A stretch of 42,059 nt of DNA from positions 1-42,059 of the forward strand of contig JALSJU010000116.1 of assembly GCA_026989145.1 (NCBI GenBank), written 5' to 3'. The position numbers were made by a program, and so were the translations under genes. The stretch comes from Thiotrichaceae bacterium. GTDB lineage: Bacteria > Pseudomonadota > Gammaproteobacteria > Thiotrichales > Thiotrichaceae. Each line of letters opens with the position of its first letter. The stretch's first letter is position 1. Positions 715 to 36,301 of this stretch are shown here, in pieces. Below the pieces are notes generated by a model. It saw only the letters and a list, made by a program, of their open reading frames with translations, did not search any database and had not been told where the DNA came from.

Positions 715-2402
715 CGCCCAATGAATTGCCACCTTGGTGGTATTCTTATTCCTATCGCTGGGATGATAACTTACATAAGAAGTTTTTGCAGCAAGCCGGT
801 AATCGCGATTTACTCAAACAAGCTGTCACTGAAATTAAGAATAAATATCTAACACGAGAAAATATTAAAGCCAAAATAGACTCTTACCGAGCTATTACAG
901 AACCGTTAGTGACGGCTAAACCCGATGATTATTGGGATATTTATGAGAATGATGCACAAAAAATCGAGCATTATGATGCTGCGTTAAACAAGTTGGTAGA
1001 TAATGTGGAAAATAATTACAGCCGTTTTATCTTAACTTTTGATAATCCCATGCCGTTCTATGCCTATGTACCAGAAATTACAGCTGATACGACTCAAACT
1101 AAATCCGTTCGATTCGATTGGGATGATACTGTCAGTCTACAAGGAAATACAATAAATTATGATTTGGTTCTGTATAACGCTAAATCAGTAGAGATTCCTA
1201 ATCAATCAACTGGATCACCTTCACACGTTATTGTTCCTGGTGAAGTGGTTGAAATTAAAAAGGGCATTCAAGTTTCAGATCTTACGCTTAACTGGGTGCA
1301 CCCAGCGGGAACCTATTTTTATAAAGTTATTGCAAGGGATACGACAAAGCCTAGCATTCTTTGGCAGGTTTCTTATGATGAGGCAGTAAAGGATGTTAAT
1401 GGGTTTCCACTTCATGGTGTTATAAAGTTCGAAGTTTTAAAAGCGGGTGTTGGGGTAGCGCCTGTTATAACTAATAATGCTCCTATTGCTTATGACCAGT
1501 CTATAGCGGCCTTGCCTAGAAATACGTCAACCGAGATTAGTTTGATTGCTAGCGATGTTGTTGAGCGAAGTAGAATGACGGCTACGATAGTTAGGCAAGC
1601 GAGTAAGGGTACTGTTACGTTAAATGCAGATGCAATGACGGTGAACTATAAACCTAATTTAAACGCAACAGGCACAGATTCCTTTACCTTTAAAGTAAAT
1701 GATGGATTGGCAGACAGTAATCATGCAACCGTGAGTTTGTTAATTAATGAGGTGCCTGTAGCAAAAGATCAGGTGAGGGCAGCTGTTAAAAAGAATAGCA
1801 GAATTACTATAAACTTAGCTAATAATGTCAGTAATGCAGAGGGTGATACGTTAATACTACTGATTAGCAAAAAACCTCAGCATGGTATTTTATCAGCAGT
1901 TAATGGGTTAAAGGTTGTTTATACGCCAGATAAACACTATGCAGGGGTTGACTCTTTTTCTTATCGCGTTAAAGACGCAAGAGGGCTCTATAGTGATGTA
2001 GCCAAAGTTACCATGACATTATTAAACAAAGCACCTACGGTGAAGACTAATCAGGAAGTAAAATTAATTCAAGATACTAAAAAACTAATTTTACTATCTG
2101 CAAAGGATGCAGATAATGACACACTTACACTAAAGATTACGAAAAAACCGTTACATGGTAGTTTAAATAAAGGCTCTGGCTTAGCAGTAACCTACTCGCC
2201 GGATAAAAACTACGTGGGTAGTGATTCATTCAGCTATAGAGTAAGTGATGCAACGGTAGATAGCAATGAGGCAACGGTGAGGTTAACGGTTGCTAAAAAG
2301 GCTGTTCCAATAACAGAAAAGTCAACGGGTGGTGGAAGTATATCTTGGTTTTTATTCTTGATCGGTGTATATGGCCTACGTTTAAAAAAACGTTGTGAAT
2401 GA
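715..2402 (+). CDS. Second part of the CotH-kinase protein: Ig/cadherin-like repeats and GlyGly-CTERM tail
   Basis: This is a continuation of the upstream CotH gene in a different frame; the TTG at 726 is only the first possible start codon and probably not a real one. The first 100 or so residues complete the CotH region (PPWWYSYSYRWDD, helical segments). A beta-rich linker follows, then three tandem repeats of about 90 residues beginning near residues 250, 342 and 435. Each ends in a D-S-F-S/T-Y/F-R/K-V motif, typical of bacterial Ig/cadherin-like (Big_9-type) domains. The C-terminus has GGGS (residues 535-538), a hydrophobic segment and the basic end RLKKR. That is the tripartite GlyGly-CTERM signal, known to be processed by rhombosortase on type II secreted proteins. 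A secreted, surface-attached multidomain protein is inferred. Confidence 0.75.
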
Positions 2403-9178: not shown

Positions 9179-10597
9179 CTATGAAGAAATGTGTTGTTTA
9201 ATCTGATTGCGAATATCCAGTAAGTTGAATGCAATGATTGTTACCAAGTAACTCGATATACCAACGGTAAGTTGTAGAATGAGCCAACCCCAACCACGTA
9301 GGTCTTTAACCCACCATAAACAAAATGCCATCACTAGTGTGGCGATAATAATTTTTGCAAAGGATTTATAAGGTACAGGTAATCTGTAATACTTTCGTCC
9401 AAAAGTAGCGCTTAGAATACTGCCCACCATGAATGAGCTAAGTGTGGCAATAGCAGCACCTTGAATACCCATAATAGGAATTAACCAGTAGTTCAAGCCT
9501 ATATTGACAGCAGCAATTACTACCCCAATTTTGGCGATGCCCATGGTGTGATCACCCAGTTGGAAGGCTAGGTCAAAGTAAAAAACTTGTAACCCCATTA
9601 AAAATATTGCACTTGTGACCCAAGGCAATAAGAAAATGACGGACTCTTGGAATCGTTCATCAATTAATAGGTAAATTAAATCTGGTCCAACCAAATTTAA
9701 GCCCACCACAGCAGGAATTGAAATGGCTAATAATGCGATAGTGTATTGCCTAAAATAATCATTCGATTCTTGAGTTTTACCCTCTTCAAGTAACTTTATA
9801 ATAACGGGGTAGGCGGCTAAATTGATCACTGCCATAATCATTAAAATGGAACTGCCAGACAAATCGTAACCTACCGCATACAACCCAGCTTGTGCTTTAT
9901 CTTGCATGCCAGCTAGCATGAAGCGATCAGAAACTTTTGTTAATTCTTCAAGTAAGTTAGCGCTCGCTATAGGCAGACCATAGATAAGTAGCTTTTTTAA
10001 CAGTGCTTTACTATAAGTGGGCTTATTATAAGAAGACCATGTTTGCTTAAACATAAACAGAGCGGGTAATAAAGTTCCTAGTGCAACACCGGTAATAACC
10101 CCAGATGGGCCATAGCCAAGATACGCAAGTAAGCCACCAATAGTGATTGATAAGGTTGAATAGCCAATTGTGAGATAGGCATATTTTAAGGGTAATATTT
10201 TAGCCGAAAATAAATTTTGTGTGATTGTGAAAAGAGCCAGCGCTAGCAACAGCAAAAAGGCATTCATAATCCATGTTGCTTGCTCCTTGCCATAATAATA
10301 GAGAACACCGAGGATACTTAAAACTAGCAAAGTCGTTAAGATACGGAAATAGGAAATTGCTATGGTCGTTAAAAAGGTCGTTTCATCATGATCTTTGCTC
10401 GTCCAAAAACGTAACGTGCCTGCAGGGAGCCATGCAAATACGACATTATGAATAAAGACAGTGCCCGTTAACAGCAGGGTATAAAGGCCGTACTCTTCTG
10501 GGCTAAGTAAATGTGTATAAAGTGATAGAGCCGCAAAAGCCATTACAGCGGGGATGGCTTTTGCTAAACCGTAAATAAGACTGTTTTTTAATAACAT
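9179..10597 (-). CDS. Polysaccharide/oligosaccharide flippase (Wzx-like, MOP superfamily)
   Basis: A hydrophobic protein of 472 residues when started at the ATG at 10597 (MLLKNSLIYGLAKAIPAVMAF); the longer frame from 10690 overlaps the upstream gene and is not favoured. About 12-14 membrane segments are visible. The N-terminal pattern YGLAKAIPAV..YTHLLSPEEYGLYTLL is typical of MATE-like oligosaccharide flippases that move lipid-linked sugar repeat units across the inner membrane. It begins two bases after the stop of the O-antigen-ligase-like gene, so the two are co-transcribed. No glycosyltransferases accompany them in this window, so the glycan cannot be guessed. Confidence 0.8.
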   Translation of the reverse strand: MLLKNSLIYGLAKAIPAVMAFAALSLYTHLLSPEEYGLYTLLLTGTVFIHNVVFAWLPAGTLRFWTSKDHDETTFLTTIAISYFRILTTLLVLSILGVLYYYGKEQATWIMNAFLLLLALALFTITQNLFSAKILPLKYAYLTIGYSTLSITIGGLLAYLGYGPSGVITGVALGTLLPALFMFKQTWSSYNKPTYSKALLKKLLIYGLPIASANLLEELTKVSDRFMLAGMQDKAQAGLYAVGYDLSGSSILMIMAVINLAAYPVIIKLLEEGKTQESNDYFRQYTIALLAISIPAVVGLNLVGPDLIYLLIDERFQESVIFLLPWVTSAIFLMGLQVFYFDLAFQLGDHTMGIAKIGVVIAAVNIGLNYWLIPIMGIQGAAIATLSSFMVGSILSATFGRKYYRLPVPYKSFAKIIIATLVMAFCLWWVKDLRGWGWLILQLTVGISSYLVTIIAFNLLDIRNQIKQHISS

Positions 10598-10598
10598 A

Positions 10599-11807
10599 TT
10601 ACACCCGTTGCTTAGCTGTAGAAAAAGCGTGAATGAATAACATGGAGTAGCTAAACCACGTGGCTTTTTGAATATGGGTATGTAAGGCAATTTGACTGAC
10701 TAACATGACAAGCAGTAAGGATAATAAAAATATCTTTTCTTCAAAAGGTGCGCGAAGAATAAAGTACAGGATGCTAATAATCATTAATATATAGAGCGTG
10801 ACACCAATAATGCCATTTTCGGTTAATAGATGAATAAAGGTATTATGAGCCCAAGCATAGTTGACATGCTTTCTACTGAGTTGCGAATATAATCCACCCA
10901 CGCCTGTACCTATGATAGGAGAGTTTTTCCACTCTTGAATTGAAGTTTTCCAGATAACGGTTCGGTAATTTAAGTCTCCAGACTTAATCGATGAACCTGC
11001 GCTTAAAACGCGATCTACCGAAGCTTTAGGTGCAAAGGTCAGAACCACACTAATGGATAAAAAGAAAAGCATAAACATGACCAATTTGATTTTTAAAGAG
11101 GCTTTTCGTTGGGTGAATAACCAATAAAATATACCTAGCATTCCTATAATAAACCCTGTTCGCGTGCCGGTTAAAAAAATGGCGTACATGATGATAGGAA
11201 TGGCAATAATATTAAAAAATACCATAAATTTATTTTCGTAAGATTTTGCAAGGTAAGCAGCCATTGGGATTGCCAGGGCAAGGATGTAAGACATCAAGTC
11301 AGTGTCGATATTGGCGATTGTATATCGACCGTAAAATTCTGTTACATTATGTAGATAATTATTAAAAATAAACCCAAAAGCTACAACAGCACCTGCTACA
11401 TAACTTTGATAAGCAAGTAGTAAGTTCTTTTTATTATCGATAACAAAGGTAAACACGAAAGGAAGAAGCATAAGCTGGAAACCTGTTACAGCAAGCTCAC
11501 TGCCTAAAACATTATCAGGTGACCATGCTAGGGATACAATGATCCAAGTCCATAATAAAGCGACAAATAAATGATAATATGAATAATTGGTGTGAGTGCC
11601 ACGGGTGACGAGCAATAAACCACTTAAACCAAAAGATAGAATGCCCAAAATTCTAGGTAAGCCATCATAGATACCATCTGCCCAAGGCATCAAGAAGATA
11701 AAACCAAGCAGTGCATATAACGCAAGTTTGTGCGTTACTCCTTGGTTATCAGTGATAATACCCCGATCATCACTTTGCTGGTTAAGTATGTAATTGTTAT
11801 TGTTCAT
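10599..11807 (-). CDS. O-antigen ligase / Wzy polymerase family protein
   Basis: An integral membrane protein of about 402 residues from the ATG at 11807; a TTG at 11825 would add six residues, and neither start has a strong ribosome site. It has many hydrophobic segments and a large hydrophilic loop containing LNYRTVIWKTSIQEWKNSPIIGTGVGG and AHNTFIHLLTENGIIG. These are the conserved Wzy_C/O-antigen ligase features (R...W......P..G.G, then H-N-x-F/Y-L). Members join sugar units or attach glycan chains to lipid A or proteins. Sequence alone does not separate polymerase, lipid A ligase and protein glycosyltransferase roles. It is paired with the flippase downstream. Confidence 0.78.
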   Translation of the reverse strand: MNNNNYILNQQSDDRGIITDNQGVTHKLALYALLGFIFLMPWADGIYDGLPRILGILSFGLSGLLLVTRGTHTNYSYYHLFVALLWTWIIVSLAWSPDNVLGSELAVTGFQLMLLPFVFTFVIDNKKNLLLAYQSYVAGAVVAFGFIFNNYLHNVTEFYGRYTIANIDTDLMSYILALAIPMAAYLAKSYENKFMVFFNIIAIPIIMYAIFLTGTRTGFIIGMLGIFYWLFTQRKASLKIKLVMFMLFFLSISVVLTFAPKASVDRVLSAGSSIKSGDLNYRTVIWKTSIQEWKNSPIIGTGVGGLYSQLSRKHVNYAWAHNTFIHLLTENGIIGVTLYILMIISILYFILRAPFEEKIFLLSLLLVMLVSQIALHTHIQKATWFSYSMLFIHAFSTAKQRV

Positions 11808-12116
11808 TAACGCTTGTTTGTCCAAGAAATTATGGCATGAGTCTCAACCGTTAAGAATAAAGGAATTTATTAACTGAGTAAATTTTAGTCAGATAAAATG
11901 CATTTATTTTCTGATAACCCTAGCGCTTTATTACTGAGGTTTAATTTATAGAGATCTTTGCACGAGTCGGTGGCGAAAGAAAAATTGGGTGAACTTTTAC
12001 TGATTGAGGCGGAAAATGAAGCTAATAACTAGTTATTAGCGAGTTTTCAATGAAAAGCAGTGAAATTCCAACTATTTTTACTAGTCATCTGCTTCGCGCA
12101 AAGGTCTCTTATAACC
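11808..12116 (+). other. Intergenic stretch with no gene seen, holding a perfect 20-base palindrome
   Basis: No credible open frame or RNA gene was found across these 309 bases. A perfect palindrome, GCTAATAACT followed by its inverse, occupies 12021-12040. Read on the minus strand it lies downstream of the small acidic gene, but no proper T-run follows, so a classical terminator is not supported. A 27-codon open stretch at about 11955-12032 (…HESVAKEKLGELLLIEAEN) has a protein-like composition but no start codon or ribosome site. It could be a decayed gene fragment. Confidence 0.35.
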
Positions 12117-27779: not shown

Positions 27780-27890
27780 TGACCTTCCTTTAGTCCATTA
27801 ACTTTTAGGTTTTATCTGTAACTGTTTAAAAAATGATCAAAAAAGTTTTATTATTTGTATACCATAATTTTTTTAATCTGGGATATCGTT

Positions 27891-29198
27891 GTGACAACTA
27901 GTGCTGTAAAAATAACTAAAAGTATAAACTCTGATTCATCTCAAGAAAAAGATGATATTGCCCGTTTGGAATCAGAGGTTAGGGGATATGTTCGTTTATT
28001 TCCCACCGTGTTTGATGTAGCCAAAGGCTCAACACTCATTGATACCGATGGTAAAAAGTATATCGATTTTTTTTGCGGTGCAGGTACTTTAAATTATGGA
28101 CATAATAATCCTAAAGCCAAGTTAGCATTACTTGATTATATTTCAAATGACGGTATACAACATTCACTGGATGCTGCTACAAAAGCGAAGGTTGAATTCT
28201 TACGCGCGTTTGAAGATATTATTTTGAAACCACGCAATCTTGAATATAAAATTCAATTTACTGGCCCAACGGGTACCAATGCAGTTGAAGCAGCCATTAA
28301 GTTGGCACGAAAATCAAAAAAACGTTCCCACATAATAGCGTTTAGTCATGCCTACCATGGTCATACTTTAGGTGCTTTAGCCGTTACTGCCAATGCGTAC
28401 TACCATGATGAGCATTATGGTTCACGTAGTAATGTAACGCACCTACCGTATGATGGTTACATGGGGGATGATGTTGATACCAGTGAATATTTAGCAAAAG
28501 TGCTTGACGATCAAAGCAGTGGTATCCCAATTCCTGCAGCGATTATTTTGGAAACCATTCAAGGTGAGGGTGGGATTAATGTCGCTCGAAATAAGTGGTT
28601 GAAAAATATTGAAGCTATTTGTAAAAAGCATGACATTTTGTTGATAGTTGATGATATTCAAATGGGCAATGGCCGTACAGGCAAGTTTTTCAGTTTTGAA
28701 CATTCAGGCATCAACCCTGATATTGTTTGTTTATCAAAATCAATTGGTGGGGGCTTACCTTTTTCAATTAATTTAATTAAACCTGAAGAAGATCTGTGGA
28801 AACCTGGCGAGCATACCGGCACTTTTCGTGGTAATAACTTGGCATTTGTCGCAGGTAAAGCCGTGCTAGAGCATTGGAATGAAGACTTTGAGGACGCTAT
28901 CTTTACACGCAGTTTAATGATTCAAAGTCGTTTGAAGCACATACTTGAAAAGTATCCACAAAAAGGTCTGAGTTATCGAGGTCTTGGCATGGTATGGGGC
29001 TTGGATATGGGTTCTGGTAAAGTAGCTAGATTGATTATTAATGAAGCATTTAATCAGGGCTTATTAGTTGAATCTTCAGGTGCCGATGACGAAGTACTAA
29101 AAATAATGGCAGCATTGACAATTGATATTGATACGCTTGAGCAAGGGCTTATAATTTTTGAAAAAGCGGTACACCATATCTTAGACAATGCTTCTTAG
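27891..29198 (+). CDS. Diaminobutyrate--2-oxoglutarate aminotransferase-like (EctB family), PLP-dependent
   Basis: A class III aminotransferase of 435 residues from the GTG at 27891, which has GGGAT upstream; the longer frame starts at a TTG. The PLP lysine is Lys283 in CLSKSIGGG; DDIQMGNGRTG, TGPTGTNAVEAAIKLAR and AYHGHTLGALAVT are further landmarks and resemble EctB closely. EctB makes 2,4-diaminobutyrate from aspartate semialdehyde and glutamate. The ectoine genes ectA and ectC are not next to it. The next gene is an adenylation-carrier protein 37 bases downstream with its own AAAAGGA site. It is therefore inferred to supply a diamino acid building block, though other diamines are possible. 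Confidence 0.85.
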   Translation: MTTSAVKITKSINSDSSQEKDDIARLESEVRGYVRLFPTVFDVAKGSTLIDTDGKKYIDFFCGAGTLNYGHNNPKAKLALLDYISNDGIQHSLDAATKAKVEFLRAFEDIILKPRNLEYKIQFTGPTGTNAVEAAIKLARKSKKRSHIIAFSHAYHGHTLGALAVTANAYYHDEHYGSRSNVTHLPYDGYMGDDVDTSEYLAKVLDDQSSGIPIPAAIILETIQGEGGINVARNKWLKNIEAICKKHDILLIVDDIQMGNGRTGKFFSFEHSGINPDIVCLSKSIGGGLPFSINLIKPEEDLWKPGEHTGTFRGNNLAFVAGKAVLEHWNEDFEDAIFTRSLMIQSRLKHILEKYPQKGLSYRGLGMVWGLDMGSGKVARLIINEAFNQGLLVESSGADDEVLKIMAALTIDIDTLEQGLIIFEKAVHHILDNAS

Positions 29199-29235
29199 AA
29201 GCTTGCACCCAACGTATCGAGCTGGATAAAAGGAA

Positions 29236-32004
29236 ATGAATCCGAATGAAAACTCGCTAGCCCCTAGTCACAAATCAATAGCCGTGAATGAATTCACTCA
29301 TAATTTGCACTCAGAAGAGCTAATTGCTTTTCCGGTTTTGTTTGCCCGCCAGTTGGCAAAAACACCCAATAATACAGCACTGGTATTTGAAGATAAAATC
29401 TATACTTATCAACAGCTAAATCAGCTTTCAGATGCGTTTAGTCAAGCCGTATTATTACAACAATCTGATAATCAAACACAGCAAGCTTGTATTGGTATTT
29501 GTATCGACAAGTCGCCTGAAGCAATCGCTGCCATGCTTGGGGTTTTAAAGTCGGGCGCAGCATTTGTTCCGCTTGATCCTGAATATCCAGCTGACCGTAT
29601 TGCTTACATGATTGATGACGCACAGATTGCGACAATTATCGCACAACCTGAGCATCAACAACGTTTGCAAGAAAGTATTAAAGATACAACATTAACTTGG
29701 CTGGATTGTTATGCGCCTTTAGCTGGCTGTAATGAAAACGCAAAGAAACAAGCTCATACTGAGTGCGACATAAAACCAAATGACCTTGCCTATATTATGT
29801 ACACCTCAGGGAGTACCGGTAAGCCTAAAGGCGTTCAGATAGAACATGCCGCATTGGCAACCTATTGTTTTGCCGATATTGAAGTCTATAAGGTTGTAGA
29901 TACAGACCGCACCTTGCAATTTTCAACGATCAATTTTGATATCGCAATTGAGGAGATTTTCCCCCCGTTGTTAAGCGGTGGTGCCGTTGTTATTCGCCCG
30001 TCAACACGCAGTGATAGCCTTAATGAGCTATCAACCATTATTAATGATTACCAAATCACTGCTGTACATATTGCAACCGCCTATTGGCATGAATGGGTTG
30101 ATTTAATGTTGGCTGCTGATGACACTATTCCTGCCTCTTTGAGGCTGATGGTGGTAACAGGGGAGAAAGTTTCAACCTTACATTATCAGCATTGGAGAAA
30201 GCTTTGCAAAAAAACAGCAGCAGAGGTCTTATGGTGTAATGCTTACGGACCAACAGAGGCAACGGTAAGCGCATCTGTTTTTATACCAAGCGATGATTTT
30301 TCTGAAGATAATATGCCGATTGGTAAACCTTTGAAGCGTTATACGGCAATTATTGTCGATGACGATAATAATGACCTACCTATTGGTGAGACTGGGCAGT
30401 TATTGATAGGTGGTCCCGCCTTGGCACGCGGCTATTTAAACCGCCCAGAGTTAAATGCCGGTGTGTTTGTGACCTTAAAAAGAGCTGATACAACAGAGCG
30501 AATGTATAAAACGGGTGATCTAGCGCGTTGGCGTGAGAATGGCGATATTGAATTTGCAGGACGAATTGATCATCAAATAAAGTTAGGCTCTTACCGTATA
30601 GAACCTGGTGAAATAGAAGTTGCCATTAACCAATATCCTGAAGCACTTGAATCATTGGTTAATTACGACGAAGTGGATGGCAAGAAAGCATTGATTGCTT
30701 ATATCGCGCAGGGTAAAAATAACATTAACTTAGAGCAGTTAAGTGATTATCTAAAACAAAACTTGCCTGCTTATATGGTGCCCGCGCGTTTTATCTTGTT
30801 AAAAATATTTCCTAAAACCACCAATGGAAAAATAGACCGGAAGGCCTTACCAGACCCATCTAATAGCGAGGTTGCGCGCTCATCAGGTTTTGTAGCACCA
30901 AGAAATCAACTTGAGAAAGCCTTGGCAAATATGTGGCAGGATGTTTTACGATTGCCACAAACAGGCATTCATGATGATTTTTTTGCTTTAGGTGGTAGCT
31001 CGTTATTAGCCGTCGGCGTGGTATCGCGGTTAATTAATGAATTAGATTTAGAACTGCCGGTTCGAGACTTTTTTGCGAACCCTACGATTGCGAGTCAGGC
31101 AGCACATATTCAACGTTTGTTGAATAATGGTTTATCCGATAAAGGTATTGATGCTGAAACGGCTCATAGTGATAGTCTGGCATTGCGTGACCGTTTACCG
31201 ATTATAAAACCTAGTTTTTTCTCATCGACGAAAGGTAAAAAATTATACGGTATTCACTATCAGCCACCATTGATTATGAATAATACGGGTTCACGTAATC
31301 ATGCGGTATTAATGTGTCATCCTTTAGGGCACGAGTATCCACGCTCTTATCGAAACTTACAGCAACTTGCTATTCAACTTTCACAAGCAGGCTTTGATGT
31401 TTTCAGGTTTGATTATTTCGGCACGGGAAACTCGGAAGGTAGCAGTGAAGACATCACGGCAGAACAGTGTGCCTTGGATATTGAAGCAGCAGCAAATTAT
31501 TTACGGCAGCAAAGCGGCTGTAAGACCTTATCATTGTTATCGGTTCGTCTAGGGGCAACATTTGCCTTGCATGCCAACGTGAAGGATATCGAAAATATGA
31601 TTATCTGGGATCCTGTTATGCAGGGTGCAGATTATGTTGAAATGCTCGAAACATTCCATGATAAAGAATTAAAGGCCTATAACTTCTTTAGTCAAATTCG
31701 TTACCGCTCAGATACGGATCAGCTTTTTGGTCATGCGTATAACCTAAAGAAACGTTCTAGCTTACGTGCATTAGCCATGCCTGTAGCGTTGTCTGTAGCA
31801 AAACAGCATCACTTAATTTCAACTTCAAACTTTCTTGAGTCTGAAAAAAGTGCTAGTGAACTAGGCAAGCACTGGCAACACTTACCTAATAATGATGAAG
31901 TTTATTGGCATGACCAAGCATATGCATTTAGCGCTTTCTCATCACCTGAAACCTTTAAATCAGTGCTTAATATTTTGAAAGCTAATGACAGTGAGCAACC
32001 GTGA
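29236..32004 (+). CDS. NRPS-like protein: adenylation, carrier and alpha/beta hydrolase domains
   Basis: A 922-residue three-domain protein. The adenylation domain (about 30-540) has A3 YTSGSTGKPKG (189-199), NAYGPTEA, YKTGDLARW, GRIDHQIKLGSYRIEPGEIE and A10 lysine Lys532 (NGKIDR). By-eye alignment to GrsA gives a pocket code near D235-I236-E239-H-V-T-A-V-S-K; the acidic residue at 239 would suit an amine-bearing substrate. The carrier domain (about 555-630) has LGGSSL with Ser589 as the phosphopantetheine site. The C-terminal domain (about 665-922) is an alpha/beta hydrolase fold (CHPLGHEYPRSYR, FRFDYFGTGNSEG), but its elbow reads S-V-R771-L-G, so the usual nucleophile is Arg. There is no condensation domain. 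It resembles exosortase-A-associated ligase and hydrolase 2 proteins. Confidence 0.87.
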   Translation: MNPNENSLAPSHKSIAVNEFTHNLHSEELIAFPVLFARQLAKTPNNTALVFEDKIYTYQQLNQLSDAFSQAVLLQQSDNQTQQACIGICIDKSPEAIAAMLGVLKSGAAFVPLDPEYPADRIAYMIDDAQIATIIAQPEHQQRLQESIKDTTLTWLDCYAPLAGCNENAKKQAHTECDIKPNDLAYIMYTSGSTGKPKGVQIEHAALATYCFADIEVYKVVDTDRTLQFSTINFDIAIEEIFPPLLSGGAVVIRPSTRSDSLNELSTIINDYQITAVHIATAYWHEWVDLMLAADDTIPASLRLMVVTGEKVSTLHYQHWRKLCKKTAAEVLWCNAYGPTEATVSASVFIPSDDFSEDNMPIGKPLKRYTAIIVDDDNNDLPIGETGQLLIGGPALARGYLNRPELNAGVFVTLKRADTTERMYKTGDLARWRENGDIEFAGRIDHQIKLGSYRIEPGEIEVAINQYPEALESLVNYDEVDGKKALIAYIAQGKNNINLEQLSDYLKQNLPAYMVPARFILLKIFPKTTNGKIDRKALPDPSNSEVARSSGFVAPRNQLEKALANMWQDVLRLPQTGIHDDFFALGGSSLLAVGVVSRLINELDLELPVRDFFANPTIASQAAHIQRLLNNGLSDKGIDAETAHSDSLALRDRLPIIKPSFFSSTKGKKLYGIHYQPPLIMNNTGSRNHAVLMCHPLGHEYPRSYRNLQQLAIQLSQAGFDVFRFDYFGTGNSEGSSEDITAEQCALDIEAAANYLRQQSGCKTLSLLSVRLGATFALHANVKDIENMIIWDPVMQGADYVEMLETFHDKELKAYNFFSQIRYRSDTDQLFGHAYNLKKRSSLRALAMPVALSVAKQHHLISTSNFLESEKSASELGKHWQHLPNNDEVYWHDQAYAFSAFSSPETFKSVLNILKANDSEQP

Positions 32005-32840
32005 TGGAACAAGCCGTTATCTTTGGCGAGTTTGATCATTTACTGGGCGTGAGTAGCCTTGCAAATGAGGCTGATAAAGTGGATACAGCAGTTATAATGA
32101 TGACTGCTGGAATGCTGCATAATGTCGGCCCCTATCGAATGTATGTAGAGCTTGCACGTAGCCTTGCTAAACAAGGTATTAGCTCACTACGATTTGATAT
32201 TTCGGGAATAGGGGATAGCCTTGGGGTTGGTCGTGCGGGTAAGTCGATTGATCGCGCCGCGGCTGAGGCTATCGAGGCAATGGACTATATTGAGGCTAAC
32301 AGCGAGGTTAAAAATTTTATTATTTTTGGTTTGTGTAGTGGTGCGGACGACGGTATTCAAACAGCGCTAAAGGATGAACGCGTTAAAGGTGTGATTCTAA
32401 TGGATGGTTTAGCTTATGGCACGATGCGGTTTAAAATTCGCCAAGCAATACTACCCTTGAAAATGCTGTTAAGGCCAGAAAAGTGGCTGAAAAAAGTTAG
32501 GGTTGTAACGGCGCTAGCTTCATCAAAACCAGCTCCAGCATCTCTTGCGATGGGAAGCGATGTTCGTGAATATCCTGAAACGGTAAAACAAGCGACTACC
32601 GAACTACAACATTTAGTCGATCGTGGCACTCAGCTTCATTTTATTTATACCGGCGGTACCGATGACTACAATTACGCAAATCAATTTTATGACATGCTGC
32701 CGGATGTGAAATGGAAAGGCACAGAATCTACCCAGTTCTTCTCACATATGGATCATGTGGCAACGCTTTGTGAAGATCGCCAAGAGCTTATTGAACATGT
32801 AACTGAAAAAGTTTTAGGTATGGTTTCCAGTAAAAGTTAG
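32004..32840 (+). CDS. Alpha/beta hydrolase resembling exosortase A-associated hydrolase 1
   Basis: A 278-residue protein starting at the ATG that shares one base with the stop of the preceding gene (TGATG); a GTG three bases earlier is also possible. The fold shows VIMMTAGMLHNVGPYRMYVELARSLAKQG, LRFDISGIGDS and the elbow GLCSG (Cys111 by this start), so the nucleophile is likely Cys, as in dienelactone hydrolase-type enzymes. FSHMDH near the end offers the catalytic histidine. From memory, the GPYRMYVELAR and GLC patterns match the exosortase A system-associated hydrolase 1 family. It may release, transfer or proof-read the carrier-bound product of its partner. Confidence 0.8.
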   Translation: MEQAVIFGEFDHLLGVSSLANEADKVDTAVIMMTAGMLHNVGPYRMYVELARSLAKQGISSLRFDISGIGDSLGVGRAGKSIDRAAAEAIEAMDYIEANSEVKNFIIFGLCSGADDGIQTALKDERVKGVILMDGLAYGTMRFKIRQAILPLKMLLRPEKWLKKVRVVTALASSKPAPASLAMGSDVREYPETVKQATTELQHLVDRGTQLHFIYTGGTDDYNYANQFYDMLPDVKWKGTESTQFFSHMDHVATLCEDRQELIEHVTEKVLGMVSSKS

Positions 32841-32841
32841 T

Positions 32842-33531
32842 ATGTGTTTTATTGTAAGTGAACAGGTATTGACCACTAAACTACCGATTCAATGGCTTGA
32901 GTACAATTTAGATGCTTACCATGAAAGCCTTTTTTCTGATTTCGGGATTAAAAAACCTGCTCAGTTATCAACGTGGGTTATAAAACGTCAAGCCCAGTTT
33001 TTGGCAGGCAGGATCGCCGCTGAAAAGTCTTTACCAGACCAATACAAACAGCTGGCCATAGGAATTGGTAACCATCGAGAGCCACTTTGGCCTAAAGGTC
33101 TTGTGGGTAGTATCTCTCATGATAATAATGTATCCATTGCTGCAAGTCAGCAGGCTCATGTCTGTGGTGGGGTGGGGATTGATTTACAGAGTTTGTTTGA
33201 TAGTAACGAATGTAATAAAAGCTTCCCGCATATTTTAAGTACCTCAGATCATCAGCTTTTCAAAAGGGGGATAACAGGTTTCACTAATGAGCAGCTTATA
33301 ACGTTAATATTTTCAGCGAAGGAATGTTTTTTTAAAGCAATATTTAATCAAGTCGGTGACTTTTTCGATTTTAATGTCGTGTCTATTCAGTCAATCAATA
33401 GTCGTTTAAAAACAATTAGCATAACAAATGATAGACAACTTAGTGATAGACTCGGCAAGGGTCAAGACTATACTATTGATTATAAATGGATAAATAATAA
33501 AAACACCATTATCACGACGCTTAAATTATAA
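32842..33531 (+). CDS. 4'-phosphopantetheinyl transferase (Sfp/EntD type)
   Basis: A 229-residue transferase that would install phosphopantetheine on the carrier domain of the NRPS-like neighbour. Motifs visible are HREPLWPKGLVGSISH (P1-P2), the magnesium-binding GVGIDLQ with Asp114, and FSAKECFFKA with Lys160, Glu161 and Lys165. It begins one base after the hydrolase stop, so the four genes form one operon. The start ATG has no clear ribosome site of its own, consistent with translational coupling. The C-terminal part is basic and Asn rich, and low in GC. Confidence 0.9.
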   Translation: MCFIVSEQVLTTKLPIQWLEYNLDAYHESLFSDFGIKKPAQLSTWVIKRQAQFLAGRIAAEKSLPDQYKQLAIGIGNHREPLWPKGLVGSISHDNNVSIAASQQAHVCGGVGIDLQSLFDSNECNKSFPHILSTSDHQLFKRGITGFTNEQLITLIFSAKECFFKAIFNQVGDFFDFNVVSIQSINSRLKTISITNDRQLSDRLGKGQDYTIDYKWINNKNTIITTLKL

Positions 33532-33665: not shown

Positions 33666-34712
33666 GTGAGTATTCAAAAAAGTAGTGCTACATCGACATT
33701 AATACAGATAGTGACATTTTTAGTGCTTGCTGCCATTTTGTTGTTTTATAAAAAAGCAGCTGTCGCAAACCTGATAACATCAGGTAGCATCAGTAATATC
33801 GGTTTAATGATTAACGGTGTCATTGTGTTACTTTTTTTAACTGGAATGCTAAGAATCGTTTTAGTGTTATTTCGTTATACGGACGAACATAAAGCGGTAA
33901 TCAAAGCGATGAAGAGCTTAAGATCAAAGCAGCTTAATTCTTTTGAAAATATATCGTCTAATTATTTGATCGCTCAGCGCTATAATAATGTTGCTTGGAT
34001 CAGTAAACAAGGTGCTGAGGTTAACCAAGCTGCCTTAGCTTCAGGTATAAATGCCGCAGAAAGTAGCCGTTTAACGTTTATTCGATTTGTTCATAGTACG
34101 CTGATACTCGCAGGTGTTTTTGGAACGGTTGTATCTCTGTCTATGGCTTTAGTCGGCGTATCTGGTCTCTTAAATTCTCCTGAAGGAGTTAAAGAGATGG
34201 GTACAATTATAAGCAGTATGTCATCGGCTTTAAGCTCCACGGTTGCAGCTATCGTCTGTTTTTTTGTTTTTGCTTACTTTTATCTACGACTGAATGACTC
34301 AAGAGTACAGCTATTAAATGCCATTGAAGAGGTGACAAGTTTATACATTTTACCGCGGTTCTCGCAAACCGAAGCTGGTTTAGCCTCTCAAGTGACCGAG
34401 CTTACCGCCTCCCTTAATAAGGCAACTCAACGTTTATTAACGGTTCAAGAGTCATTTAATCAAGCAGGCCTCTCATTGCAAACAGCGGTTGATGATTTGC
34501 AGTCTCAGGTACAGGGTAGCAGTTTAAATGAAATTAAAGGCATTTTGCGTAAAGGCTTTCATTTATCGGAACCTGTGTATGACGGTGATAAAGAGCCAGT
34601 AATTAAACAGCAAGAAACACCTGTAGATGACAAAACTGCATCAACTTACTCACACAGTGATTTAATGACAACGGATAAAACTACTTCCAATAAGGCGAGT
34701 AAACTACGATGA
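33666..34712 (+). CDS. MotA/TolQ/ExbB-type proton channel family protein
   Basis: A 348-residue membrane protein; the GTG start at 33666 has AAGGGG five bases upstream. Two membrane segments lie near the N-terminus (about 11-28 and 45-68). Two more lie at about 140-166 (FVHSTLILAGVFGTVVSLSMALVG) and 178-207 (IISSMSSALSSTVAAIVCFFVFAYFYL), which carry the family pattern for the ion path. A cytoplasmic tail of about 140 residues follows (ASQVTELTASLNKATQRLLTVQESF). Its stop overlaps the start of the next gene, which encodes a single-span ExbD/MotB-like partner. Together they form a putative ion-driven motor. It is not part of a tol, exb-ton or flagellar cluster. Confidence 0.82.
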   Translation: MSIQKSSATSTLIQIVTFLVLAAILLFYKKAAVANLITSGSISNIGLMINGVIVLLFLTGMLRIVLVLFRYTDEHKAVIKAMKSLRSKQLNSFENISSNYLIAQRYNNVAWISKQGAEVNQAALASGINAAESSRLTFIRFVHSTLILAGVFGTVVSLSMALVGVSGLLNSPEGVKEMGTIISSMSSALSSTVAAIVCFFVFAYFYLRLNDSRVQLLNAIEEVTSLYILPRFSQTEAGLASQVTELTASLNKATQRLLTVQESFNQAGLSLQTAVDDLQSQVQGSSLNEIKGILRKGFHLSEPVYDGDKEPVIKQQETPVDDKTASTYSHSDLMTTDKTTSNKASKLR

Positions 34713-36301
34713 GGTTTGGTTTTCCTGGCGATAACCTTCACCTTGCAAATCACGGTGTCAGTGAGGAAAGCTTTTGGCCATCCTTTACCGATATTATGAT
34801 GGTGATTGTAATGGTGTTTTTATTAGTCACTGTTACAGTATTGTTGAATAACTGGACATTAATTACGGACTTGAAGCAAAGTGTTAAAGAGCAAAAAGAA
34901 GCTGCCTCTTTAGCAAAAAAGGAACAACAAGAAAATAAAAACTTAGCATCAAATCTTACTCAGCTAAAACAACAATTTGTATCGGTTAAGCAAGATAAAA
35001 ACAGCAAGGAACAAAAGTTATCGCAAGCTTTAACGCTGTTAGCTAGTGCTCAAGCCGATCTCACAACATTAAAAGAGAATTTGTTACAAAGTGAGAATGA
35101 AAGAAAGCAACAGATTCAAGCCATTAATTCATTACAAACTGTGGTTGCCAAACAAGAAAATTCATTAGCTGCTGCTAAAGAGTTATCTGACAAATTGATT
35201 TCAAATTTATCACTATTAACGACAGAGAAAGATGAGCAAGCACTTGATGCTCAGCGACTTCATGGTACTTTAGCGAAGTGGATGGCCGAAGGCAAAGAAT
35301 TAACAGAGTCCTTAGCTGAGAAAGAAGCACGATTAGTAACATCTGAAAAACAGCAGGCGCAGTTGTCAAAAGAACTTGAGGAGAGAGCAACACAGAATAA
35401 AGCACAGCAATTGGAGTTAGTAAGTTTAGATAAAACAACGAATGACTTAAAAATTAAGCTAAAAGAATTACAGGCGAGTAAAGGATCGGGGGCAAGTGAA
35501 TTAGCGGCATTAAAAAAAGAACATCAAGAGTTAATGTTGGATTTAGAAACAACACTTAAAGAAAAAGAAAAACAAACTTCTTATGTTTCAACCTTAAAAA
35601 AGAGTAAAGCAGAATTAAAGAAAATACTCACTTTATTACAAACCGAGCGTAGTAGTTTGTCTGAGAAGGTGATACAGCTTGAAAATCAACTCAGTAGCAT
35701 TGATGAAAAGAATAAAGATATAAATCAAACTAAAAATTCAGCTGATGAAAAAATCAAAAACTTGCTGTCTATTACTAATGAGCAAAAGATCCGTATTGAA
35801 GCGTTAAAAGAAGAGAATGAAAAGCTGTCTGGTAATATTGCAGAGCAATTAACTAGCACAGAGCAGCAACTTGAAGATATAAAAGTTCAGCTAAAAGCAA
35901 AAGATGAAGTAATAACCGTACTACAAAAGGATTATAAAGAGCGTGAAACTCAGTTGCTAAGCTTGCAAGGTGAGTATGATTCGCTCGATAGCAAATACCA
36001 AAAATTATTACGCCCTGCGCGTTCATCAAAAGGTAAACATGTTGTTTCTGTTCTTTATAGAAAGTCTGGAAAAAAACGTATTATTCGTTTAAAGACAAAC
36101 CCCAGTGGGCGTTATAAGACAGTGAGTAAAGCAAGTTTACACAAAGCTTTAGAAATATTAAAAAAGAAGTATAAAAATGATTTGTACCTAAAAATTATTA
36201 TCCCAAAGAATAGTGGCTTATTGCATAACGAAGCATGGAAATTCACTTCTAGTTTGCAAAGTCGTTACGACTATTACTCTCAGCCCGATAATTCTAAGTA
36301 A
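34709..36301 (+). CDS. ExbD/MotB-like membrane protein with a long coiled coil, function unknown
   Basis: A 530-residue protein overlapping the channel gene by four bases (ATGA). After a short cytoplasmic N-terminus comes FWPSFTDIMMVIVMVFLLVT, a single membrane segment with Asp28 at its start, the place of the proton-carrying aspartate in ExbD, TolR, MotB and ZorB. Residues from about 52 to 430 form a long coiled coil, rich in K, E, Q, L and S. A compact C-terminal domain (about 430-525) with VVSVLYRKSGKKRIIRL and NDLYLKIIIPKNSGLLHNEAWKF follows. No OmpA-type peptidoglycan-binding motif is visible. A rigid periplasmic arm driven by the channel partner is inferred. Confidence 0.75.
   Translation: MRFGFPGDNLHLANHGVSEESFWPSFTDIMMVIVMVFLLVTVTVLLNNWTLITDLKQSVKEQKEAASLAKKEQQENKNLASNLTQLKQQFVSVKQDKNSKEQKLSQALTLLASAQADLTTLKENLLQSENERKQQIQAINSLQTVVAKQENSLAAAKELSDKLISNLSLLTTEKDEQALDAQRLHGTLAKWMAEGKELTESLAEKEARLVTSEKQQAQLSKELEERATQNKAQQLELVSLDKTTNDLKIKLKELQASKGSGASELAALKKEHQELMLDLETTLKEKEKQTSYVSTLKKSKAELKKILTLLQTERSSLSEKVIQLENQLSSIDEKNKDINQTKNSADEKIKNLLSITNEQKIRIEALKEENEKLSGNIAEQLTSTEQQLEDIKVQLKAKDEVITVLQKDYKERETQLLSLQGEYDSLDSKYQKLLRPARSSKGKHVVSVLYRKSGKKRIIRLKTNPSGRYKTVSKASLHKALEILKKKYKNDLYLKIIIPKNSGLLHNEAWKFTSSLQSRYDYYSQPDNSK

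Follow-up and report, generated by a model that had tools for sequence, protein, structure and literature searches.

Organization of the cassette

The four-gene cassette described here occupies positions 27,891 to 33,531 of a 42,059-nucleotide stretch of DNA from a Thiotrichaceae bacterium (GenBank assembly GCA_026989145.1, contig JALSJU010000116.1), which we refer to as the window; its genome is designated G000, and other genomes and loci are given G and L numbers. The cassette encodes an aminotransferase, a fusion of an adenylation (A) domain, a peptidyl carrier protein (PCP) domain and a hydrolase domain, a free hydrolase, and a phosphopantetheinyl transferase (Table 1). First, the genes are consecutive and tightly packed, with 37 bases, an overlap of 4 and then 1 base between them, as claimed in an earlier note made from the letters alone; they are real, and form a conserved unit (see below). 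Secondly, the joining of ligase, carrier and hydrolase in one protein, which that note also proposed, is borne out by the Pfam domains AMP-binding, AMP-binding_C, PP-binding and Hydrolase_4 in the fusion, and the A-PCP and phosphopantetheinyl transferase domains agree with the carrier-bound logic it described. The A domain (TIGR01733, 398 bits, cut-off 317) and the carrier (PP-binding, Ser589) supply these two parts of a non-ribosomal peptide synthetase (NRPS) module, and Ser589, invariant in all four aligned cassettes, is presumably the phosphopantetheine attachment site. Thirdly, neither a condensation nor a thioesterase domain is found in the fusion by Pfam at E 0.001, again as that note stated, and no condensation domain is present among the five Pfam families of the cassette scan. 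The phosphopantetheinyl transferase scores 82 bits against the EntD model NF007604, under its cut-off of 169. The hydrophobicity maximum of the fusion (1.76, at residue 582) lies inside the carrier domain, and no strongly hydrophobic stretch stands out in the other three proteins.

Table 1. Genes and domains of the cassette, with positions in the window (aa, amino acids)
Feature	Position	Strand	Remarks
EctB-type class III aminotransferase gene	27891-29198	+	start GTG; longest frame begins with TTG at 27855
A-PCP-hydrolase fusion gene	29236-32004	+	922 aa
Adenylation domain, fusion residues 36-532	29341..30831	+	TIGR01733, AMP-binding, AMP-binding_C, pocket motifs
Carrier (PCP) domain, fusion residues 562-625	30919..31110	+	PP-binding 54 bits; LGG-x-S-L motif
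Hydrolase-2-like domain of fusion, Arg at nucleophile elbow	31156..32004	+	TIGR03101 72 bits, below cut-off
Hydrolase-1-like alpha/beta hydrolase, Cys112 and His252	32001-32840	+	start GTG, or ATG at 32004; TIGR03100
EntD-like phosphopantetheinyl transferase	32842-33531	+	4PPT_N and ACPS over Pfam cut-offs

A pair of Cys-elbow and Arg-elbow hydrolases

The free hydrolase (hydrolase 1) has its best profile match in TIGR03100, and the C-terminal domain of the fusion (hydrolase 2) its best NCBIfam match in TIGR03101. Cys112 and His252 of hydrolase 1 are invariant in all ten aligned rows, and a structural model (mean pLDDT 77), which among PDB folds resembles esterases and lipases most closely, places Cys112 at the elbow between a strand (residues 105-111) and a helix (113-124). 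The corresponding elbow residue of hydrolase 2 is Arg131, which is invariant in 13 of 13 aligned rows and located between strand 124-130 and helix 132-139 (mean pLDDT 83). Over 38 loci the elbow residue is Cys in 40/40 hydrolase-1 domains, and among 40 hydrolase-2 domains it is Arg in 37, Gly in three and Ser in none; because the loci were picked by hydrolase-1 similarity, and Cys and Arg members went into the profiles, these counts describe the family and not a random sample. The Gly-elbow proteins are the Rhizobium fused pairs of L192, L193 and L194. SyrC and CmaE have a Cys nucleophile at the elbow of an alpha/beta hydrolase, an arrangement that hydrolase 1 shares, as seen from Cys112, His252, the model and the uniform Cys of the family.

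EctB and its relation to ectoine synthesis

The aminotransferase scores 627 bits against the ectoine EctB model TIGR02407 (cut-off 552) and is the one EctB of G000 over the cut-off; its motif SKSIGGG contains K283, which, from the motif, we take to be the pyridoxal phosphate (PLP) lysine. The enzyme is predicted to make L-2,4-diaminobutyrate (Dab) from aspartate semialdehyde. Ectoine synthesis was considered and rejected, in line with the earlier note, since ectC (PF06339) was not found in G000, a genome 97.7% complete; the search works, because PF06339 was over cut-off in 4 of the 16 genomes searched with it. No ectA is adjacent to the cassette, a genome-wide search for it not having been made. 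The cassette thus shares EctB with the ectABC pathway and differs from it in that no ectC is found, in the separate clade of its EctB and in the tie to an A-PCP protein. Among other genomes, G162 has ectA, ectB and ectC together, and G069 and G312 have an ectC around which, over about 6 kbp, neither an EctB match nor a recognisable ectA was seen. Solitary ectC-like genes lacking a nearby EctB match are located at L102 6107-6493 and L103 6383-6769, in two cassette-carrying genomes.

An EctB tree of 63 rows, with a bootstrap that had not converged, groups the six cassette EctBs in a single clade (100/98; the L106 row is partial). This clade is joined (100/98) to 13 EctBs from loci carrying ectA and ectC, and stands apart from putative degradation EctBs (assigned by their neighbours) and from other NRPS-linked EctBs. 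The tree leaves out L143, an ectoine EctB whose extracted protein has at most 300 residues, and L101, which is the same gene as L134. Because the cassette clade joins the EctBs of ectA/ectC loci, its members most likely descend from the ectoine lineage and would have been put to another use. Tight grouping with ectoine enzymes, which the earlier note had named as telling against its reading, is therefore seen in part: the cassette EctBs are adjacent to them in the tree but form a separate clade and are not among them. A chance placement of an ordinary EctB, serving ectoine or Dab metabolism, beside an unrelated NRPS-like gene would agree with the TIGR02407 score and with this adjacency, but it is largely refuted by the lack of a detectable ectC in G000, by the conservation of the A-PCP neighbour with EctB in three families, and by the clade of their own that the cassette EctBs form, and we regard it as very improbable.

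A different pairing of EctB with NRPS genes is seen at L074 (8398-14605) and L167 (1889-7000), in which EctB is followed by an A-PCP protein with several hydrophobic stretches in its C-terminal half; L074 also has a gene that reads like a phosphopantetheinyl transferase. We take the hydrophobic half to resemble poly-amino-acid synthetases, and the pairing is possibly a poly-diaminobutyrate system.

Predicted substrate of the adenylation domain

One clade (support 100 in a quick tree with some long branches) unites the A domains of the five cassettes with the first A domain of L064, and all of these share the pocket motifs FDI[AS]IEEIFPPL, H[IM]AT[AG]YWHEW, LM[VI]VTGEKVS and NAYGPTE-x-TV[ST]A. 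The EctB and A-domain trees give the same split, with the window and L059 on one side and L060, L106 and L063 on the other. By gramicidin synthetase numbering we take the pocket to read D-I-E-A/G-V/I-T-A-V-S/T-K, and the acidic residue at the third place would presumably fit a basic side chain. Dab is the substrate that we infer, the linkage to EctB being a stronger argument than the pocket reading.

L064 (9739-15396) is a two-module NRPS with the order A-PCP-condensation-A-PCP-hydrolase 2. Its genome, G162, has no cassette EctB, and the ectABC genes located elsewhere in it would allow it to make Dab; the L064 product is likely a Dab-containing dipeptide.

Relation to the exosortase-A set

The earlier note had likened the cassette to the small-molecule genes of exosortase-A loci. 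The likeness holds in part, in that both have an AMP-forming ligase and homologues of hydrolases 1 and 2, each hydrolase matching its own model best; membership does not, with scores far below the cut-offs for the ligase (TIGR03098, 214 bits, or 216 in the genome search, cut-off 592), hydrolase 1 (TIGR03100, 79 bits, cut-off 168) and hydrolase 2 (TIGR03101, 72 bits, cut-off 203). The cassette also differs in its true NRPS A-PCP fused to hydrolase 2 and in its EctB, which is its PLP enzyme; the exosortase-A set also includes a PLP decarboxylase (TIGR03099). Exosortase (PF09721) was not found in G000, G005, G069, G312 or G385, and is present in 10 of the 20 genomes searched, with two copies in the cassette carrier G215. 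Membership of the set was thus rejected from the ligase and hydrolase scores and the lack of a detectable exosortase in G000, and the cassette hydrolases are homologues of the exosortase-A hydrolases that fall outside the set by its cut-offs. In the main text of PMC1569441, as covered by a word search, the words hydrolase, ligase, decarboxylase and acyl carrier are absent.

Distribution and surroundings of the cassette

A class-level search of 369 genomes with the hydrolase-1 alignment as query gave 20 genomes at E 1e-20, G000 included, and L059 (G215), L060 (G069) and L063 (G312) from this set share the order EctB, A-PCP-hydrolase 2, hydrolase 1; L106 (G385, of the same family as G069) has it as well, with EctB cut by the contig end. 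Because the same order recurs in these loci, other families included, the arrangement is not chance, and the neighbours are conserved together as the earlier note presumed. Gene order, domains, elbow residues and this co-conservation are established at the level of sequence. L059 is the closest full relative, sharing 72% identity in EctB, 70% in the A domain, about 60% in hydrolase 1 and 36% in the phosphopantetheinyl transferase, which is in the same place as in the window. A divergently oriented phosphopantetheinyl-transferase-like gene is close by in L060 and L106, and none was seen near L063. In the congener G005 (L033), from a search of 30 relatives with G000 included, the gene after an EctB of 76% identity encodes a related A domain, of which the contig end leaves only the start. 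All four genomes in the family of G069 have a match, three of them being cassettes and the fourth (G207) a condensation-A-PCP-hydrolase 2 form, and one of three genomes matches in the taxonomic order of G215. A phylum sample of 398 genomes, with two candidates scored per genome, gave a full-length match in the window genome only and partial ones in five others. A scan of the collection using hydrolase 1 of the window found 5 loci, and EctB was not among the matches listed for them. These searches are samples of genomes and not a full census; the cassette is known here from six genomes in three families, and is patchy yet conserved.

Upstream of the cassette is a HAD-family phosphatase, and downstream are a MotA/ExbB-like membrane protein (a weak Pfam match) and a 530-residue coiled-coil protein with no Pfam match (together at 33666-36301), followed by folP. 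A protein with repeated cadherin-like and bacterial Ig domains is encoded near the left end of the window (726-2402). The G+C content of the cassette is similar to that of its flanks; recent acquisition by a mobile element was rejected on this basis and because the window hydrolase matches a single plasmid record, at E 1e-15 (phages unsearched). A dedicated promoter and a dedicated terminator were likewise rejected, with 20 promoter-like matches against 18.5 (standard deviation 4.5) in shuffles and 6 terminator-like matches against 4.4 (standard deviation 2.1).

Genomic contexts of the hydrolase pair

The 38 loci, for which 10 of 31 matching plasmid records were examined, sort into several contexts. 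The cassettes account for five (the window, L059, L060, L063 and L106). In 13 NRPS-type loci (L062, L064-L069, L076, L008-L011 and L188) hydrolase 2 is fused to or beside an NRPS, and a condensation domain is present in nine of the ten examined, the exception being L062 (L009, L010 and L188 lay outside the search). Nine loci (L012, L071, L073, L189-L191, L193, L194 and L196) are amino acid:acyl carrier protein (ACP) ligase operons, which also encode DUF1839, a glycoside hydrolase 2-like protein and the two hydrolases as one fused protein; an acyl-CoA dehydrogenase is seen in seven (L012 and L194 are cut there) and an annotated ACP in five (L189-L191, L193 and L196). L070 is such an operon with no ligase seen. 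Six loci have polysaccharide genes and no loader seen (L054, L055, L075, L077, L078 and L192), L054 and L055 being placed here by weak glycosyltransferase matches only, and four fall outside these groups (L061, L072, L195 and L197, the last two records being unannotated there). A loader of amino acids onto a carrier adjoins the pair in the cassettes, the NRPS-type loci and the ligase operons. With L078 hydrolase 1 as query, no match was found in plasmids.

The ligase operons, of the PRK07080 type, share with the cassette a carrier-loaded amino acid and the hydrolase pair, but unlike the cassette they use as loader a ligase resembling seryl-tRNA synthetase (above the PRK07080 cut-off in L071), and they have their own acyl-CoA dehydrogenase, DUF1839 and glycoside hydrolase 2-like proteins and no EctB seen. 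A conserved example is located at L071 172-8525, and L073, L189-L191, L193 and L196 are alike.

Clear polysaccharide genes are present in 11 of the 38 loci (L060, L063, L106, L062, L069, L188, L192, L194, L075, L077 and L078), a count made from part of the flanking genes and with no control family. The cassettes of G069 and G312 have an oligosaccharide flippase before them and a polysaccharide deacetylase after; that of G385 has the deacetylase, its other side lying off the contig. No deacetylase homologue was found at E 1e-10 in G207, the cassette-less congener of these carriers, and G215 and G162 have distant ones elsewhere in the genome (26% and 34%). A row of genes with small gaps in Variovorax paradoxus VAI-C comprises two NRPS genes, one for a phosphopantetheinyl transferase and then those for hydrolases 2 and 1, and it leads on to genes for a polysaccharide export protein, a tyrosine autokinase and a sugar transferase and to other sugar genes. 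The L062 pair is in the neighbourhood of an O-antigen ligase, a glycosyltransferase, an epimerase and a nucleotidyltransferase, and the L069 pair of a sugar transferase and two glycosyltransferases on the other strand. Genes adjoining the pair encode a Wzb-like phosphatase, a deacetylase of XrtA type (above the TIGR03006 cut-off), a glycosyltransferase and a flippase-like protein in L077, and a flippase in L075. A fused pair in Rhizobium tumorigenes, with Gly for Arg, stands at the head of a series of exopolysaccharide genes. For Burkholderia cenocepacia, a TIGR03100 hydrolase from an exopolysaccharide cluster has been guessed to serve quality control (PMC3584217).

A possible role in aminoacyl transfer

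We tentatively propose, with somewhat less than even confidence, that this is a self-contained aminoacyl loading-and-transfer cassette. EctB would make Dab, and the A domain would adenylate it and load it onto the PCP primed by the cassette's own phosphopantetheinyl transferase. The aminoacyl group would then move from the PCP to Cys112, forming a thioester there and positioned with the help of the Arg-elbow pseudo-hydrolase at the C-terminus of the fusion, which would act together with the Cys-elbow hydrolase, and would be passed to an acceptor amine or hydroxyl. Because 11 of the 38 pair loci carry polysaccharide genes, the most probable acceptor is a surface-glycan or glycolipid precursor in the cytoplasm, this being the weakest link of the proposed chain.

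Transfer rather than hydrolysis by the pair is suggested by analogy. SyrC, CmaE and CysB are described as stand-alone enzymes that shuttle aminoacyl groups from an adenylation-carrier protein to another carrier; the type II thioesterase LgnA does the same with a Ser triad (PMC8748450, PMC7966384). Hydrolase 1 is likewise a stand-alone enzyme beside an adenylation-carrier protein; the cassette differs by adding the Arg-elbow pseudo-hydrolase, fused to A-PCP or adjacent. The proposal is also supported by the co-occurrence of EctB and the A domain with matching splits in their trees, by the Cys and Arg elbows, and by the finding of the pair beside carrier loaders that are unrelated to one another, in NRPS loci as well as in amino acid:ACP ligase operons.

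Several points weigh against this proposal. As LgnA shuttles with a Ser triad, Cys is neither required for transfer nor proof of it, and the acid of the Cys-His-acid triad is not strictly conserved in the hydrolase-1 alignment. The preference for Dab draws on the EctB linkage, and the reading of the pocket residues is provisional. The cassette has no adjoining polysaccharide gene in the window, nor in L059, where the genes beside it read as cysN, cysD, purE and purK; the flippase and O-antigen ligase/polymerase genes of the window (9179-11825, - strand) are about 16 kbp upstream in a housekeeping neighbourhood, and no deacetylase homologue was found in G000 or G005 (E 1e-10). The NRPS-type pairs of L064-L068 also lack a polysaccharide gene among the flanking genes scanned or read.

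Release of a free metabolite would account for some of these points, with the Cys hydrolase hydrolysing the tethered Dab or cyclising it to a lactam such as 3-aminopyrrolidin-2-one. The esterase- and lipase-like fold of hydrolase 1, the location of the pair at the thioesterase position after terminal NRPS modules (L065, L066 and L008) and the lack of adjoining glycan genes in the window and L059 are consistent with it. However, free Dab would presumably make the loading pointless, a uniform Cys elbow, partnered by an Arg-elbow domain that is fused or adjacent, is not what ordinary serine thioesterases show, and the polysaccharide linkage of the 11 loci is left unexplained; we consider release rather unlikely. 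Alternatively, the cassette could supply Dab in trans to another NRPS or carrier in the genome, for which the shuttling between carriers described for SyrC, CmaE and CysB is a model, and L064, joining a related A-PCP to a second module, a parallel. However, no NRPS partner is evident in G000 (small stand-alone carriers were not searched), where the next matches to the cassette protein score 69 bits (a 1156-residue frame) and 60 bits (a 560-residue frame) against 2114 for itself, and TIGR03098 gives the same 560-residue protein, a ligase, at 213 bits with the rest at or below 125. Supply in trans thus seems improbable, and transfer to a glycan precursor is the reading that we favour.

Implications for the hydrolase family

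NRPS loaders with trans-acting transferases and the hydrolase families themselves were already known and catalogued, respectively; the new observation is that the Cys/Arg hydrolase pair is common to NRPS loci, amino acid:ACP ligase operons and polysaccharide loci. Searches of the literature (open papers, by titles and abstract starts, with only the best-ranked results for some topics) found no paper on this gene set. To our knowledge, no function is known for exosortase-A hydrolases 1 and 2 or for the amino acid:ACP ligase operons. The association of relatives of the pair with NRPS modules, with an aminoacyl-tRNA-synthetase-like loader and with polysaccharide loci points to one testable role, the off-loading of a carrier-bound acyl group onto an acceptor, and the four-gene cassette is small enough to be rebuilt in vitro, so that the question can be tested directly. 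It is possible, although with less confidence than for the proposal above, that the pair represents a two-part family of transferases, not recognised before, which delivers carrier-bound amino acids, peptides or other acyl groups to glycans in many proteobacteria, of which the window cassette, making its own Dab, would be the smallest NRPS-linked form.

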